A DNA stretch of 10,538 nt from a bacterium. Lineage in GTDB: Bacteria > UBA9089 > CG2-30-40-21 > SBAY01. Below, in pieces: positions 2,133 to 10,336 of this stretch (position 1 is its first letter; each line of letters begins with the position of its first letter). The stretch covers positions 1-10,538 of the forward strand of contig JBFLYA010000132.1 in the NCBI GenBank assembly GCA_040757115.1, read 5' to 3'. The translations under genes were made by a program, and so were the position numbers. The notes beneath the pieces are model-generated. The model saw only the letters and a program-made list of their open reading frames with translations, had not been told where the DNA came from and ran no database searches.

Positions 2133-2672
2133 ATGAATGAGACTTTACATATAAATGGAGAAATAAGAAAGGCGAAATATAAAGACTCAAAGCTAGAAAA
2201 GGCTTTTAATTTTGCGATTAAATTTATTGCCAGTGGCTTTTTTTCTGGATATTCTAAATTTGCCTCAGGCACGGTCGGCACACTTCTTGGCGGTATCCCA
2301 CTTTATTTACTTATTTATTTCCTATGCCATCGTTTCTCTAATCCTGATTTGTGGTATTTTTTACTGGTTATAATCTTAACGATAATAAGCATCTGGTTCT
2401 GCACAAAGGCAGAAATTCTCTTTGAAGAAAAAGATTCAAAAAAAATCGTTTTAGATGAAATTATTGGTTATCTTTTTTGTATGTTTTTTCTCCCATTGCA
2501 TATTTCTTTTATCGTGATAGGATTTGTGTTATTCCGGGCAATGGATGTCTTAAAACCACTGGGCATTCGTAAATTACAAAATCTTCAAGGTGGATTGGGA
2601 ATAATGATAGATGATTGTGCCGCAGGGATATTGACTTGTATTATACTTCATTTTATAAAAAATATAGTGTAA
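2133..2672 (+). CDS. pgpA: Phosphatidylglycerophosphatase A (PgpA)
   Basis: This membrane phosphatase removes phosphate from phosphatidylglycerol phosphate to give phosphatidylglycerol. PgpA family marks are present: KFASGTVGTLLGG at 42-54 (family APGTxGS region), VLDEIIG at 106-112, FRAMDVLKP at 134-142 and GGLGIMIDD at 153-161, which contain the conserved acidic residues. Hydrophobic segments are near 52-66, 73-90, 110-135 and 162-175. At 179 aa it is slightly long; the first ~30 residues are a charged extension. The gene has its own promoter (2091-2119). The pgpA-cinA-thpR order seen here is common in bacteria. The TAA stop (2670-2672) lies inside the GTAAC terminus of the adjacent repeat element, so that element begins at the last base of the preceding Val codon. 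Confidence 0.9.
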   Translation: MNETLHINGEIRKAKYKDSKLEKAFNFAIKFIASGFFSGYSKFASGTVGTLLGGIPLYLLIYFLCHRFSNPDLWYFLLVIILTIISIWFCTKAEILFEEKDSKKIVLDEIIGYLFCMFFLPLHISFIVIGFVLFRAMDVLKPLGIRKLQNLQGGLGIMIDDCAAGILTCIILHFIKNIV

Positions 2673-2962
2673 CTATTCACCGCAGAGACGCAGAGGAACA
2701 GAGAAAAAAGGATTTAAATTAGATTGTGGATACCGGATAGATCTTTTAGTTGAAGAAAAAGTTATCGTAGAATTAAAAGCAGTCGAGCAACTACTTCCGA
2801 TTCACGAAGCTCAACTTTTAACCTATCTAAAAATGATGAATAAAAGGATAGGTTTATTCATCAATTTTAATGTTTTTCTGTTCTAAGAGATGGAATTAAG
2901 CGTATAGCCAATAGATTTTAATTTTTTCTCTGTGTCTGTGCGTCTCTGCGGTGAATAGTTAC
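2669..2962. repeat. 294-bp inverted-repeat element carrying a GxxExxY relic
   Basis: The ends are inverted copies: GTAACTATTCACCGCAGAG from 2669 rightwards matches its complement ending at 2962, with 24 identical terminal bases, followed by imperfect pairing over the GACGCAGAG-type arms. The interior (2711-2921) is the remains of a GxxExxY gene. No obvious target duplication flanks it (left ATATAGT, right GATGAAT). The terminus GTAAC(C/T)(G/A)TTCA is shared with three other elements in this window. It sits between pgpA and the truncated cinA and provides the pgpA stop codon. Confidence 0.85.
2711..2921 (+). pseudogene. GxxExxY-family protein remnant, 5'-truncated and frameshifted
   Basis: Reading from about 2710 gives GFKLDCGYRIDLLVEEKV, then IVELKA and EAQLLTYLKMMNKRIGLFINFN, which is the C-terminal half of the GxxExxY family (about 125 aa; PD-(D/E)xK nuclease-like fold). 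The Asp...Glu-x-Lys core (RIDLLVEE...VELK) is still visible. That frame ends at TAA 2884-2886. The expected C-terminus LRDGIKRIANRF with stop (2883-2921) continues in another frame, so a frameshift occurred in the T-rich run near 2870-2885. The first ~60 residues, including the GxxExxY motif itself, are missing; the left repeat arm abuts the break. There is no start codon or ribosome site. The function of intact members is not firmly established. Confidence 0.85.
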
Positions 2963-2977
2963 GATGAATGAAAAAAA

Positions 2978-3691
2978 ATGCAAGAAGAAGTTTGTAAATT
3001 CAGGATTTTAAAAATAATTGGGTTAACCCAGGAAGAAATCAAGAAAGCATTAGGTGGCCATATCGGTGAAAGCGATAGTGTAAAATTGAATCTTGTGAGC
3101 AATCCTGATGGAAGTATTGACCTCGAAATTAAGATTACGGCAAAAGTAGACCGGATGGCACAAGCCTTACTTTCTGCCGCTGAAAAAGAAATCCGTATAA
3201 AATTACAGGATAATATCTATGGCGTAGATGGAGAGAGATTAGAGGAAGTAGTAGGTTATTTACTTTATCTAAGAAAACTTAGCATAGCCGTGGCTGAATC
3301 CTGCACCGGCGGATTACTTTCTAATAAACTTACAGATGTGCCTGGTAGTTCTCTTTATTATTATGGTGGAATAGTCGCTTATGAGAAAGAAATAAAGATT
3401 AATCTTTTAAATATTCCAACAGAGATAATTGAAAAATGCGGGATAGTTAGTCGGGAAATTGCCACGATGATGGCTAAAGGAATAGCCAGGTTGATGAAAA
3501 CAGACATTGGTCTGGGAATAACTGGCTATGCAGGGCCCGAAGGAGATGAGGTTGGTCTGGTATATATTGGTTTATCCATAAATGATAATTTGAATGTTAA
3601 GGAATTCAGGTTTGTTGGAGAACGAGAAGAAATTAAAGAAAAGGCCGCCTGTGCCGCCTTAGATATGGTCAGAAGGGAGTTATTAAAATGA
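2978..3691 (+). CDS. cinA: CinA lacking its N-terminal domain (KH linker + NMN amidohydrolase)
   Basis: The C-terminal domain (about 95-237) is the nicotinamide-nucleotide amidohydrolase (PncC) fold, which deamidates NMN to NaMN in pyridine nucleotide recycling: AESCTGG at 106-112, VPGSS at 121-125 and TGYAGP at 182-187 are diagnostic. Residues 7-90 match the KH-like linker of full-length CinA (LKIIGLTQEEI; IYGVDGERLEEVV). The usual first domain (MoaB/MogA-like, ~165 aa) is absent, and an in-frame TGA at 2969 blocks any upstream extension. Full-length CinA is about 400 aa; this is 237. No Shine-Dalgarno precedes ATG 2978, so expression is uncertain. The inverted-repeat element ends 16 nt upstream, which suggests an insertion/deletion removed the first domain. 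The gene overlaps thpR by ATGA. Confidence 0.85.
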   Translation: MQEEVCKFRILKIIGLTQEEIKKALGGHIGESDSVKLNLVSNPDGSIDLEIKITAKVDRMAQALLSAAEKEIRIKLQDNIYGVDGERLEEVVGYLLYLRKLSIAVAESCTGGLLSNKLTDVPGSSLYYYGGIVAYEKEIKINLLNIPTEIIEKCGIVSREIATMMAKGIARLMKTDIGLGITGYAGPEGDEVGLVYIGLSINDNLNVKEFRFVGEREEIKEKAACAALDMVRRELLK

Positions 3692-4263
3692 TAGAAGTAA
3701 GAACTTTTGTGGCTATCTCAATGTCACCCCAACTTAAGGAGACATTAAGCAAGTTTCAATCAGAACTAAAAAAGGCTAATGCTGATGTTAAATGGGTAAA
3801 TTCTGATGGCATGCATATCACCTTAAAATTTCTGGGCAATTGTCTTATTGGACAGTTAGAGTCGGTATATCAAATGGTTCTGGAGGCAACCTCGGATTTT
3901 AAACAATTTACACTTTCCCTGACTTCAGTCGGGGCTTTTCCCAGTTTATCAAGCCCAAAGGTAATCTGGGTAGGCGTGGATAAAGGCAAAGAAGAATGTA
4001 TAGAATTATCCAAACGAATAGACAATAACTTACTTAGACTTGGATTTCCAATCGAACAAAGAGAATCTATTCCCCATTTAACATTAGGGAGGATAAAAAG
4101 TCCTCAAAGGAAAGATGATTTGTCTAAATTAATCTCTACCCTAAAACCTCCAGCTTTTGGTCAGATGGAGGTTGCTAAGATAGAGGTAATGGGGAGCCAA
4201 TTGACGCCAAAAGGAGCGCTCTACACCACACTGCAGGAATTACCGCTGATGAAAGAAGAATAG
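3688..4263 (+). CDS. thpR: RNA 2',3'-cyclic phosphodiesterase (2'-5' RNA ligase family)
   Basis: A cytosolic 2H-phosphoesterase that opens 2',3'-cyclic phosphate ends of RNA (historically 2'-5' RNA ligase LigT). The two catalytic HxTx motifs are clear: HITL at 43-46 and HLTL at 130-133, the latter in the family context IPHLTLGRIK. Other family marks are RTFVAI near the N-terminus, KWV at 35-37, LKFLG at 46-50 and GAFPS...PKVIWVGV at 82-97. The length, 191 aa, is normal. AGGGAG at 3674-3679 is 8 nt before the ATG, and the ATGA overlap with cinA implies translational coupling. A repeat-filled gap follows; no separate terminator is visible. Confidence 0.93.
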   Translation: MIEVRTFVAISMSPQLKETLSKFQSELKKANADVKWVNSDGMHITLKFLGNCLIGQLESVYQMVLEATSDFKQFTLSLTSVGAFPSLSSPKVIWVGVDKGKEECIELSKRIDNNLLRLGFPIEQRESIPHLTLGRIKSPQRKDDLSKLISTLKPPAFGQMEVAKIEVMGSQLTPKGALYTTLQELPLMKEE

Positions 4264-4327
4264 ATGCGGTGTCAGTCAATTTCTGTTCCCAGGACGGCTC
4301 CCATTTATTGTTTAGATAGCAAATCCT

Positions 4328-6829
<2,502 letters not shown>

Positions 6830-6833
<4 letters not shown>

Positions 6834-7048
6834 TCGTAGGCATAGGTAAATTTTTAATCCTTGCAGGCATTATCCTGGTTGCAATTGGATGTTTGTTCCT
6901 ATTAGCGAATAAACTTCCATTTATTGGGAAGTTACCCGGGGATATTTTTATCAAAAAAGAGCATTTCTCCTTCTATTGTCCGATAACTACCTGTATCTTA
7001 ATTAGTATAATTTTAACCATTATCTTTTGGCTATTTGGTCGGAGATAA
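6830..7048 (+). CDS. DUF2905 family membrane protein
   Basis: This 72-residue protein with two membrane helices (about 7-27 and 52-69) carries the hallmark loop GKLPGDIFI at 33-41 followed by FSFYCPITTCILISI (46-60), which fits the DUF2905 signature (LPGDI...f.fYfPi.T.i..S). The role of the family is unknown; members are small inner-membrane proteins often found beside DNA-processing or envelope genes. GGAG at 6818-6821 is 8 nt before the ATG, and the ATGA overlap couples it to the preceding small gene. The spoIID-like gene starts 22 nt downstream, so it probably shares the transcript from the ligA promoter. Confidence 0.88.
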
Positions 7049-7070
7049 ACCCTCAGATTAAAAGATAGAA

Positions 7071-8192
7071 ATGAAAAAAATATTTTTAATATTAATCATA
7101 TTAAGTTTAAGCAAAGATTTAGAAGCGATTAACCTCAGAATAGGACTGCTCAATAATGAGAAAGCAGTTAATATTAGTGCCACAGGTTATCTTGAGCTAA
7201 TTGACCTATCTACTGATGAAATACTATTAACTACCTATGGTTGGAAAAATGGATTTATAAAGGTTAATCAAAGTGGATTAGAGGTGAAAGATGTTGGAAT
7301 AATAAGTGGTCCTATTCGGTTAAAACCTATTGTTGGGGCAAATATCCTTGTAAATGGCAATAAATATCGCGGTGAAATAGAAATAGAAACAGGTAGGGAT
7401 GGAATTAAGGTTATCAATGTTGTAGATTTAGAAGAGTATCTTTATGGAGTGATAAAACCTGAGATGACAGATAAAGCGCCAATTGAGGCTTTAAAGGCTC
7501 AAGCCATCATTGCCAGAACATTTGCCATAGATAATCTTAAAAAACATGAAGAAGAAGGATATAATTTATGTTCAAAGATTCATTGCCAGGTATATAAAGG
7601 TATGGATGTCGAATCAGAAAAGACAATCAATGCGGTTGATTCCACTCAAGGACAAATATTAACCTTTGAAGGAGATGTCGCTTCCACATTTTATCATGCC
7701 TGGTGTGGAGGTATAACCGCAAGTGCACAGTCAGTTTGGGGACAAGATATTCCTTATTTACAAGAAGTTTATGACCCATTTTGTAGAAAATCTAATAAAG
7801 GATGGGAGGTGACTTTCTCATTATCTGAAATTAAAGATATACTTAACCGCAATGGTTTTAATATTAGTAATATATCTTCTATTTCCGCAAATTCTAACAC
7901 CAATGGTGGGAGGGTAAAAGAAGTTATAATTAAAAATGGAAATGGAGGATTGACGATTTCAAGTTCTAAGTTTCGATTAATAATGGGTTCAGACAAAATA
8001 TGGAGCACTATCTTTACCATCCGCACAAATGGGGACAGGGTTACTTTTCAAGGTATCGGTAAGGGACATGGAGTTGGACTCTGCCAACAAGGGGCAATAT
8101 CAATGGCAGAATTAGGATATAATTATAAACAAATTTTGGGGTTTTATTATCCAGGAGTTTTTCTAAGCTCAATTATTTCTGAAGGAGAATAA
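7071..8192 (+). CDS. SpoIID/LytB-domain protein, probable peptidoglycan lytic transglycosylase
   Basis: Exported cell-wall enzyme or amidase enhancer of the SpoIID family, which cleaves denuded glycan strands. A short signal peptide is likely (MKKIFLILIILSLS, possible cleavage after LEA near residue 19). The SpoIID domain contains LEEYLYGVIKPEM at 120-132 with the presumed catalytic Glu131, KAQAIIARTFA at 143-152, the paired cysteines Cys167/Cys172 (CSKIHCQVYKG), FYHAWCGG at 207-214, a conserved VWGQDIPYL at 222-230, and the C-terminal KGHGVGLCQQGA at 331-342. 373 aa is normal for non-sporulation homologues. In a Gram-negative-type cell it would act in the periplasm, not in spore engulfment. 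No strong Shine-Dalgarno is seen (AAAAGATAG only); it lies 22 nt after the DUF2905 gene and is probably last in the ligA operon. Confidence 0.92.
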   Translation: MKKIFLILIILSLSKDLEAINLRIGLLNNEKAVNISATGYLELIDLSTDEILLTTYGWKNGFIKVNQSGLEVKDVGIISGPIRLKPIVGANILVNGNKYRGEIEIETGRDGIKVINVVDLEEYLYGVIKPEMTDKAPIEALKAQAIIARTFAIDNLKKHEEEGYNLCSKIHCQVYKGMDVESEKTINAVDSTQGQILTFEGDVASTFYHAWCGGITASAQSVWGQDIPYLQEVYDPFCRKSNKGWEVTFSLSEIKDILNRNGFNISNISSISANSNTNGGRVKEVIIKNGNGGLTISSSKFRLIMGSDKIWSTIFTIRTNGDRVTFQGIGKGHGVGLCQQGAISMAELGYNYKQILGFYYPGVFLSSIISEGE

Positions 8193-8240
8193 ATAGTGGT
8201 AAATAGGGTTCTTCAAAATAGGATTTGGGGGAGACAACAA

Positions 8241-8314
8241 ATAAATATTAAATATCAAATATTAAATATCAAAATTAAATATCAAAATGCAAAATTACAA
8301 ATCAAATTTCAAAA
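8241..8314. repeat. AT-rich tandem repeat of ATTAAATATCAAA units
   Basis: Three to four imperfect copies of ATTAAATATCAAA run from about 8241 to 8290, then grade into AAAATGCAAAATTACAAATC. It resembles the AAATTCCAAAT-type repeat at the right edge of the window (10505-10538). No reading frame is supported. Confidence 0.6.
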
Positions 8315-8518
8315 AGAACTGTAACTATTCAGCCACTGATTGACACGGATTAGCACGGATAAATACAGAGGACAGAAGGCGGAAGGCAGAGGACAACAGG
8401 AGGAAAACCCTTCAGCCTAATTACGGACATGGATACCGGACACGATTCACGAATTTTCCATGTTTCATCCGTGTTTATCTGTGGCTAAACAGTTACAGAT
8501 AATTTTACATTTTGATAT
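8279..8518. repeat. Outer inverted repeat enclosing a GTAAC-ended element
   Basis: ATATCAAAATGCAAAATTA (8279-8297) is complementary to 8500-8518 with one mismatch in 19. Between the arms lies the GTAAC-ended element 8321-8496. Here the GTAAC module is the inner one, the reverse of the nesting order at 4328-4564. The rest of the gap 8193-8640 has no gene; the last part, 8519-8640, is AT-rich sequence upstream of leuD without a convincing promoter. Confidence 0.75.
8321..8496. repeat. 176-bp inverted-repeat element with GACACGGAT arms
   Basis: The left arm starts GTAACTATTCAGCCACTGAT (8321) and continues GACACGGATTAGCACGGATA. The right arm is the imperfect complement ending at 8496 (CCGTGTTTATCTGTGGCTAA, then CAGTTAC). 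The interior is purine-rich (ACAGAAGGCGGAAGGCAGA around 8371-8390) and non-coding. The GTAAC(C/T)(G/A)TT(C/T)A terminus is shared with the elements at 2669, 4328 and 9152. Confidence 0.82.
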
Positions 8519-8640
8519 GTAATTTTTATATTTGCTTTTTGCATTTTGCTCTTTGGAGGAAATTGATAAAAATAGAGGTTTTAAATACCCGCTTAAAAAC
8601 TACAGTTTCTTAGTTTTGCAGAACTCTAAATGGTAAATAC

Positions 8641-8648
8641 GAGGAGGT
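8641..8648 (+). promoter_or_regulatory. Strong ribosome binding site of leuD
   Basis: GAGGAGGT is 6 nt upstream of ATG 8655, a near-ideal Shine-Dalgarno that fixes the leuD start. It contrasts with ligA, ubiE and cinA, which have none. Confidence 0.85.
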
Positions 8649-8654
8649 ATATCC

Positions 8655-9155
8655 ATGATACTAAAAGGTAAGGGACATAAATTTGGTGATGACATAAGCA
8701 CAGATTTGATAGCTCCGGGTAGATATTTCCATTTGCGGTCTAATCTACAGGAATTGGCTAAACATGTGATGGAGGATGCAGACCCAGAATTTGCCTCGAA
8801 AATAAAACCCGGTGATTTTATTGTTGCCGGAAGGAATTTTGGACTGGGTTCAAGTAGAGAACACGCCCCCACCATTATCAAATTAGCCGGAATTAGTGGT
8901 GTCATTGCTCAATCTTTTGCTCGAATATTCTTCCGTAATGCAATTAATGTCGGACTACCAGTGATTGAATGTGAAACTAAAGATATAACTGAGGGGGATG
9001 AATTAGAGGTAGATTTAGAAAAAGGATGCCTGATTAATCAAACAAAAGGCACAACCTCTTATTTCTCCAGATTGCCAGAGATAATGACTAATATCTTGCA
9101 AGATGGCGGATTAGTTGACCATGTTCGTAAATATGGGGATTTTAAATTACAGTAA
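8655..9155 (+). CDS. leuD: 3-isopropylmalate dehydratase small subunit (LeuD/HacB type)
   Basis: This is the swivel-domain subunit of isopropylmalate isomerase, which with the Fe-S large subunit LeuC converts 2- to 3-isopropylmalate in leucine synthesis. The short 166-aa form and the sequence (HKFGDDISTDLIAPGRY at 8-24, GRNFGLGSSREHAP at 59-72, QSFARIFFRNAINVGLP at 86-102) match the prokaryotic LeuD/homoaconitase small-subunit group; a role in a related pathway such as methylmalate or homocitrate cannot be excluded. leuC is not in the window, so the subunits are encoded apart or leuD is an isolated gene flanked by repeats on both sides. Translation starts from a strong GAGGAGGT site. The TAA stop (9153-9155) lies inside the GTAAC end of the next repeat element. 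Confidence 0.92.
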   Translation: MILKGKGHKFGDDISTDLIAPGRYFHLRSNLQELAKHVMEDADPEFASKIKPGDFIVAGRNFGLGSSREHAPTIIKLAGISGVIAQSFARIFFRNAINVGLPVIECETKDITEGDELEVDLEKGCLINQTKGTTSYFSRLPEIMTNILQDGGLVDHVRKYGDFKLQ

Positions 9156-9388
9156 CCGTTCACCGCACAGACGCAGAGAAAAAATTAAAATCTATTCACC
9201 AGAGACAGAAATTTCCTTTTTTTGTGCATTTCGGGTCTTTCGTTGTTTATTAATCTTTTAATACTTACTTTCGACTAACTGTTTTTAAGCCTTTTTAAAC
9301 ATCGAAAAACGCGAAAACCACGAAAAAAAAGATATTTTCCTCTCTGTTTCTCTGCGTCTCTGCGGTAAAGGATTACCTGAACGGTTAC
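9152..9388. repeat. 237-bp inverted-repeat element with a nested second repeat
   Basis: The left end is GTAACCGTTCACCGCACAG (9152). The right end, read on the complement from 9388, is GTAACCGTTCAGG, then a 10-bp insertion, then CCGCAGAGACGCAGAG. Thus the right end carries the GTAACCGTTCAGG tip of the 4328 element attached to the CCGCAGAG arm of the 2669 element. Bases 9174-9196 are an exact 23-nt inverted match to 2910-2932, the 3' end of the GxxExxY relic and its flank. A second inverted repeat is nested at 9216-9331. Confidence 0.82.
9216..9331. repeat. Nested TTTCGTG-type inverted repeat
   Basis: The left arm CTTTTTTTGTGCATTTCGGG (from 9216) pairs imperfectly with the right arm 9297-9331 (complement CTTTTTTTTCGTGGTTTTCG). 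It lies entirely inside the 9152-9388 element and belongs to a different repeat type from the outer arms. It is non-coding. Confidence 0.7.
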
Positions 9389-10216: not shown

Positions 10217-10336
10217 GTGTAAAAAAGGGGATAAGGAGATAAAAGGAGATATGGAGATTATTCATAGTCCTTTGCAAAATTTTAGAATGAATTTATCTCC
10301 TTATCTCCATAATCCCCATATCTCCTTTTCTTACAC
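10217..10336. repeat. GTGTAA/GGAGATA inverted-repeat module, copy 2
   Basis: The left arm starts GTGTAAAAAAGGGGATAAGG and the right arm is the complement of GTGTAAGAAAAGGAGATATG, ending at 10336. It has the same ends and unit type as 4354-4549 but a different, shorter interior, and it lacks the outer GTAACCGTTCAGG tips and the innermost nested repeat. Confidence 0.82.

Follow-up and report, generated by a model that had tools for sequence, protein, structure and literature searches.

We find that the four small repeat elements in the window, the 10,538-nt stretch of bacterial DNA analysed here as a whole, are very probably non-autonomous transposable elements that carry the terminal inverted repeats of the ISBst12 group (IS66 family) and are moved in trans by an IS66-type transposase. 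The elements lie where the first-pass annotation had placed them, the tip GTAACYRTTCA or a variant of it is present at all four (Table 1), and none of them contains a transposase gene.

Table 1. Elements of the window and IS66-family genes located between tips in the host genome and in other genomes.
Feature	Coordinates	Strand	Genome	Tips	Content
Element 1	2669..2962	.	window	GTAACTATTCA/GTAACTATTCA	CCGCAGAG quasi-repeat arms and truncated GxxExxY gene
GxxExxY remnant	2701..2886	+	window		C-terminal half, PD-(D/E)XK superfamily; TIGR04256 and PF13366 matches
Element 2	4328..4564	.	window	GTAACCGTTCA/GTAAGCGTTCA	GGAGATA arms
Element 3	8321..8496	.	window	GTAACTATTCA/GTAACTGTTTA	CCACTGAT/GACACGGAT arms
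Element 4	9152..9388	.	window	GTAACCGTTCA/GTAACCGTTCA	CCGCAGAG arms
L071	893-2455		host genome	between inverted tips	PF03050 pseudogene, one TAG and one TAA inside
L080	1339-2843		G004	between inverted tips	PF03050, intact, 468 aa
L079	485-2221		G005	variant tip GTAACTACTCA	PF03050, intact, 522 aa
L081	1242-2455		G014	tip GTAACTATTCA	PF03050, internal TGA

The exact tip sequence occurs 1065 times in the 4.3-Mb host genome (525 forward and 540 reverse), as against 22 copies (9 forward and 13 reverse) of the reversed pattern that served as control in the same genome. The tip is about 50 times commoner than its control, in support of the first-pass annotation. In the window alone, with up to two mismatches allowed, 15 matches to the tip are present vs 9.3 expected, which is weakly above chance. 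In a 1.14-Mb sample, 67 of the 102 neighbouring exact tips lying less than 600 bp apart face each other (+-), the others being arranged as ++ (16), -- (11) and -+ (8); the reversed pattern gave 3 copies and 0 pairs in 1.14 Mb. The tips mostly form inverted pairs with a spacing of 150–300 bp; the tip, GTAACYRTTCA with G or GG often following, measures some 11–14 bp. Tipped pairs make up 2.6% of the 1.15 Mb (of 4.3 Mb) sampled for the copy statistics, from which we extrapolate that tipped elements constitute about 2–3% of the whole genome. Within the host phylum the tip count varies from 2 to 1074 among 19 genomes, and outside the phylum it is mostly close to the control level.

The tipped elements have moved by transposition. 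Exact 8-bp target duplications are found just outside the tips at 39 of 116 inverted pairs, with 0.40 expected from shuffled partners, and in the same 116 pairs there are 4 duplications of seven bases and 0 of nine. A genome of the same genus (G001) has 8-bp duplications at 14 of 36 pairs (0.38 expected) and one from another family of the host phylum (G008) has 15 (0.33 expected), so that they exceed expectation by about 40–100 times in three genomes, with every other length far behind, and all body classes with at least 10 copies include members with such duplications. Because the duplications sit outside the tips, the unit that is moving now consists of tip, body and tip. The search for empty sites in related genomes, which had been proposed as a check, yielded a precise one in G001: a 278-bp element of the host genome (L142:4646) has CGTGGTTA at each side, and the G001 site holds a single CGTGGTTA and nothing else.

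None of the four window elements has an 8-bp duplication, but many related elements in other parts of the genome have one. A 292-bp sibling of Element 1 with an identical arm start (L197) is bordered by a duplication of AATTTCGT, and duplications are found in 9 of the 23 tipped units of the Element 2 body type in the genome sample, in 3 of the 13 units of the mixed CCACTGAT+CCACAGAT type cited for Element 3, and in 15 of the 33 CCGCAGAG units, the type of Element 4. At the G001 site syntenic to Element 1 the element is absent and 50 other bases lie between the shared flanks, which suggests an insertion together with a neighbouring deletion. Elements 2 and 3 are also absent from G001, where the same intergenic regions hold other tipped elements, and Element 4 is shared with G001 at the same site with a different internal length. 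As a population, the tipped elements have the characteristics of MITEs: they are short and present in many copies, they lack a transposase, and they show inverted ends, target duplications and empty sites.

The first-pass annotation knew of no described family with this tip, a view that did not hold, as the tip is the terminal repeat of the ISBst12 group. ISDge4 of Deinococcus geothermalis, a member of that group, is bounded by GTGACTACTCAGCA and GTAACTGCTCAGCA and has an 8-bp repeat (PMC12898284), and two IS66-family elements of Paracoccus are also listed with 8-bp repeats (PMC3281130). The host tip GTAACYRTTCAG matches the ISDge4 end GTAACTGCTCAGCA, and the inverted ends start with GTAA. The first-pass annotation had suggested looking for a transposase gene enclosed by such tips, and IS66-family genes (PF03050) are indeed found between inverted tips in several of the phylum's genomes (Table 1). 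The product of L080 scores 270 bits against the NCBIfam model of IS66 transposases (cut-off 180), and in both L079 and L080 the tips enclose a single ORF, which is the arrangement of the ISBst12 group. We assign the tip to the ISBst12 type since it encloses IS66 genes and since the ends and the 8-bp repeat of ISDge4 agree with it. From the shared ends and the duplication length we infer that the small elements are moved by an IS66 enzyme, of which a functional copy presumably acted recently. Among the IS66 copies found between tips in the host genome, of which the assembly is fragmented, the L071 pseudogene alone is full-length, and no PF03050 gene was detected in the likewise fragmented assembly of G008 despite 717 exact tips (loci L289-L308); the partner transposase of G008 is either lost or missing from the assembly. 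As the assemblies are fragmented, recent multicopy genes may be missing from them. No 8-bp duplication of their own was seen among the tip-bounded IS66 copies inspected. Two further genes, L089 and L097 (about 560 aa, marginal PF03050 matches), were considered as partner transposase and set aside, as no tip pair surrounds them.

An alternative reading, which we consider improbable, is that the bodies are mobile themselves and insert with a preference for sites next to or within the tip sequence, which would then be a target site and not a transposon end. Several untipped CCGCAGAG copies do come after a ...TTCA, the inner end of the tip, and the same kinds of bodies are found untipped in other phyla. 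Against this, in all larger body classes the 8-bp duplications are external to the tips, the empty site lacks the tips as well as the body, and IS66 genes lie between the same tips; for present movement the duplications and the empty site largely refute the tip as a target. It is less likely still that another, unseen transposase that also generates 8-bp duplications moves the elements, with the tip-bounded IS66 genes being incidental. The failure to find an intact tip-bounded IS66 gene in the host genome, or any in G008, speaks for such an enzyme, but the ISBst12 group is matched in ends, in duplication length and in the single-ORF IS66 gene, and tip-bounded IS66 copies recur in several genomes of the phylum. 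Finally, the palindromic nature of the elements and a recurring tetranucleotide before some untipped arms are reminiscent of palindromes of the REP/RAYT-like or IS200/IS605-like kind, which a Y1 transposase moves as single strands, but Y1 single-strand transposition makes no target duplication, and the great excess of 8-bp duplications in three genomes leaves practically no room for it in the case of the tipped units.

We favor an IS66-type enzyme. Mobilisation in trans by one type of enzyme, as put forward in the first-pass annotation, is well supported and is the simplest account of unlike bodies behind a shared tip. In such a mechanism, an IS66-type DDE transposase supplied in trans would recognise the tip of about 11–14 bp and could move any DNA enclosed by two inverted tips that lie within a few hundred bases of each other, duplicating 8 bp of the target upon insertion. 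The bodies are hairpin-like and have short arms of quasi-repeats; several types carry a small gene, either nuclease-like GxxExxY or that of the 23S rRNA intervening-sequence protein. Several such units presumably gained tips and then spread as MITEs and gene-carrying cassettes.

As for the bodies, at least seven arm types are present in the host genome, namely CCGCAGAG, CCACGAAG, CCACTGAT, CCACAGAT, CCACAGAG, GGAGATA and AAGTAGG, and for most of them the distance from the tip has one or two fixed values. G008 has further body types, for example those with GGCTGAAGG and GGATGCTCGATC repeats. The earlier description of the window elements as unlike in their interiors is correct in that the interiors differ, but there are three types and not four, as Elements 1 and 4 both have CCGCAGAG arms, which that description itself already stated. 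In the host and G001 genomes the interiors are not those of IS66, with exact identity to IS66 ends reaching at most 6 or 7 bases beyond the tip and usually less, and one G008 type has 20 bases in all in common with the left end of L071. Derivation of the interiors by deletion within IS66 was rejected for the host and G001, since the shared sequence rarely passes the first few bases after the tip.

In three arm types (CCGCAGAG, GGAGATA and AAGTAGG) a gene is found inside the tips. The host genome has 68 full or partial matches to GxxExxY (PF13366, PD-(D/E)XK superfamily) and 26 matches to the 23S rRNA intervening-sequence protein (PF05635). In some units the GxxExxY or intervening-sequence protein gene is complete. 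Tips together with perfect 8-bp duplications are found, among others, on GxxExxY units (L183, L186 and L188, with an internal stop in L186) and on intervening-sequence protein units (L276, L278 and L279, the latter two with an internal stop). In each of these, IS ends surround a non-transposase gene and have moved with it as a unit, which is the arrangement of a mobile insertion cassette. Intervening-sequence protein genes or their remnants are present in units of similar architecture at L272, L276, L277, L278, L279 and L287, several of which have the same tips and perfect 8-bp duplications. Element 1 is a deletion remnant of a gene-carrying GxxExxY unit: its arms are 41 bp long and 93% complementary, and the last half of the gene is kept (TIGR04256, 1.4e-21, profile positions 52-107 of 116; PF13366, 2.1e-20). 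Gene-less bodies are presumably deletion remnants of gene-carrying units as well; for the remaining arm types no gene-bearing parent was found. In the host-genome sample, a TCGCAGAG body is several times preceded by a different sequence, CACCTGTGCGATTAGACTAATTCA, which may represent a different type of end attached to a similar body.

The hairpin units appear to be older than the tips, since GxxExxY units in other phyla have such arms without the tip. At GxxExxY loci in other phyla, inverted quasi-repeat arms are detected at E <0.001 in 11 of 19 cases vs 0 of 74 control positions, and the tip was not seen at the arm ends inspected. Outside the host phylum the GxxExxY units at L240-L268 are about 430–620 bp long with inverted quasi-repeat arms (e.g. 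AACCGCCGATGAACGCCGAT) and have no common outer tip. CCGCAGAGACGCAGAG arms occur without a tip in other phyla and also at some sites in the host genome. Judged from these sequence comparisons, units that were already in existence probably gained the tip later, and the suggestion of the first-pass annotation that it inserts around existing repeats may in that sense hold as history, with untipped bodies in other phyla, although what moves at present is the complete tipped unit. The arm types that bear tips differ between families of the phylum (L264 and the G008 elements), and identical arms carry either CG or TA tips, which suggests that tips were acquired repeatedly. We speculate that this acquisition could have been aided by the TTCA that some untipped arms share with the inner end of the tip. 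In a wider and quite tentative reading, GxxExxY and 23S intervening-sequence genes belong to a general class of small genes in quasi-repeat hairpin units found across phyla and lacking transposon ends, which can gain the ends of locally active IS elements and which here became enclosed many times by ISBst12 tips, giving rise to a many-bodied population of MITEs and cassettes.

Mobile DNA of this kind is already known, but the range of its cargo is unusual. The elements resemble the ISBst12 group, e.g. ISDge4 (PMC12898284), in their ends, their 8-bp duplication and the single-ORF transposase of the full-length copies, whereas those of the window have no transposase gene and interiors unrelated to IS66. 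Like bacterial MITEs such as MITECca01, which is derived from IS982 (PMC9769881), they are short, present in high copy number and bounded by IS-like inverted ends, with no transposase and an interior mostly unrelated to the parent, but here at least seven body types share a single type of end. MICs and the Tn3-derived TIME/TIME-COMP mosaics (PMC4133298) similarly consist of non-transposase genes or foreign DNA set between transposon ends and are mobilised in trans; they differ from the present elements in transposase family and duplication length, and here every cargo unit has inverted quasi-repeat arms of its own, with GxxExxY or intervening-sequence protein genes as cargo. In gene content and inverted-arm architecture several bodies agree with GxxExxY and 23S rRNA intervening-sequence (PF05635) units, but the GxxExxY units examined in other phyla have no IS66 tip, whereas here both kinds of unit are enclosed by the tip and move with it. 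We found no description of an IS66- or ISBst12-derived MITE in the literature searched, nor of the pattern of tipped units in the GxxExxY literature searched, and a population of hundreds of non-autonomous IS66-type elements whose hairpin-unit cargo is interchangeable appears to be new within that literature. With at least seven body types on one end, the minimal sequence need of an ISBst12 transposase becomes testable, as does the question of how unrelated DNA becomes bounded by transposon ends, and the widespread GxxExxY gene family, which has no assigned role, is now placed on demonstrably moving units.

Some further repeats and junctions in the window deserve mention. The interior of Element 2 has an inner GTGTAAGAA...CTTACAC repeat, and a GGAGATA inverted repeat resembling this interior, also with GTGTAAGAA...CTTACAC, lies untipped at 10217-10335; its flank (AATAACGCTAATAGTGAAATCTATGCAGATTTGGT) is found again elsewhere in the genome. 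Element 3 is enclosed by the arms of another inverted repeat (8243-8297 and 8500-8554) of the AAATATCAAAATGCAAAATTA type, which is a separate, untipped repeat family in the host genome. The tip of Element 1 (GTAAC) provides the stop codon of the upstream ORF at 2133-2672 (window 2666-2672), and the G001 sequence departs right at this stop codon and tip.
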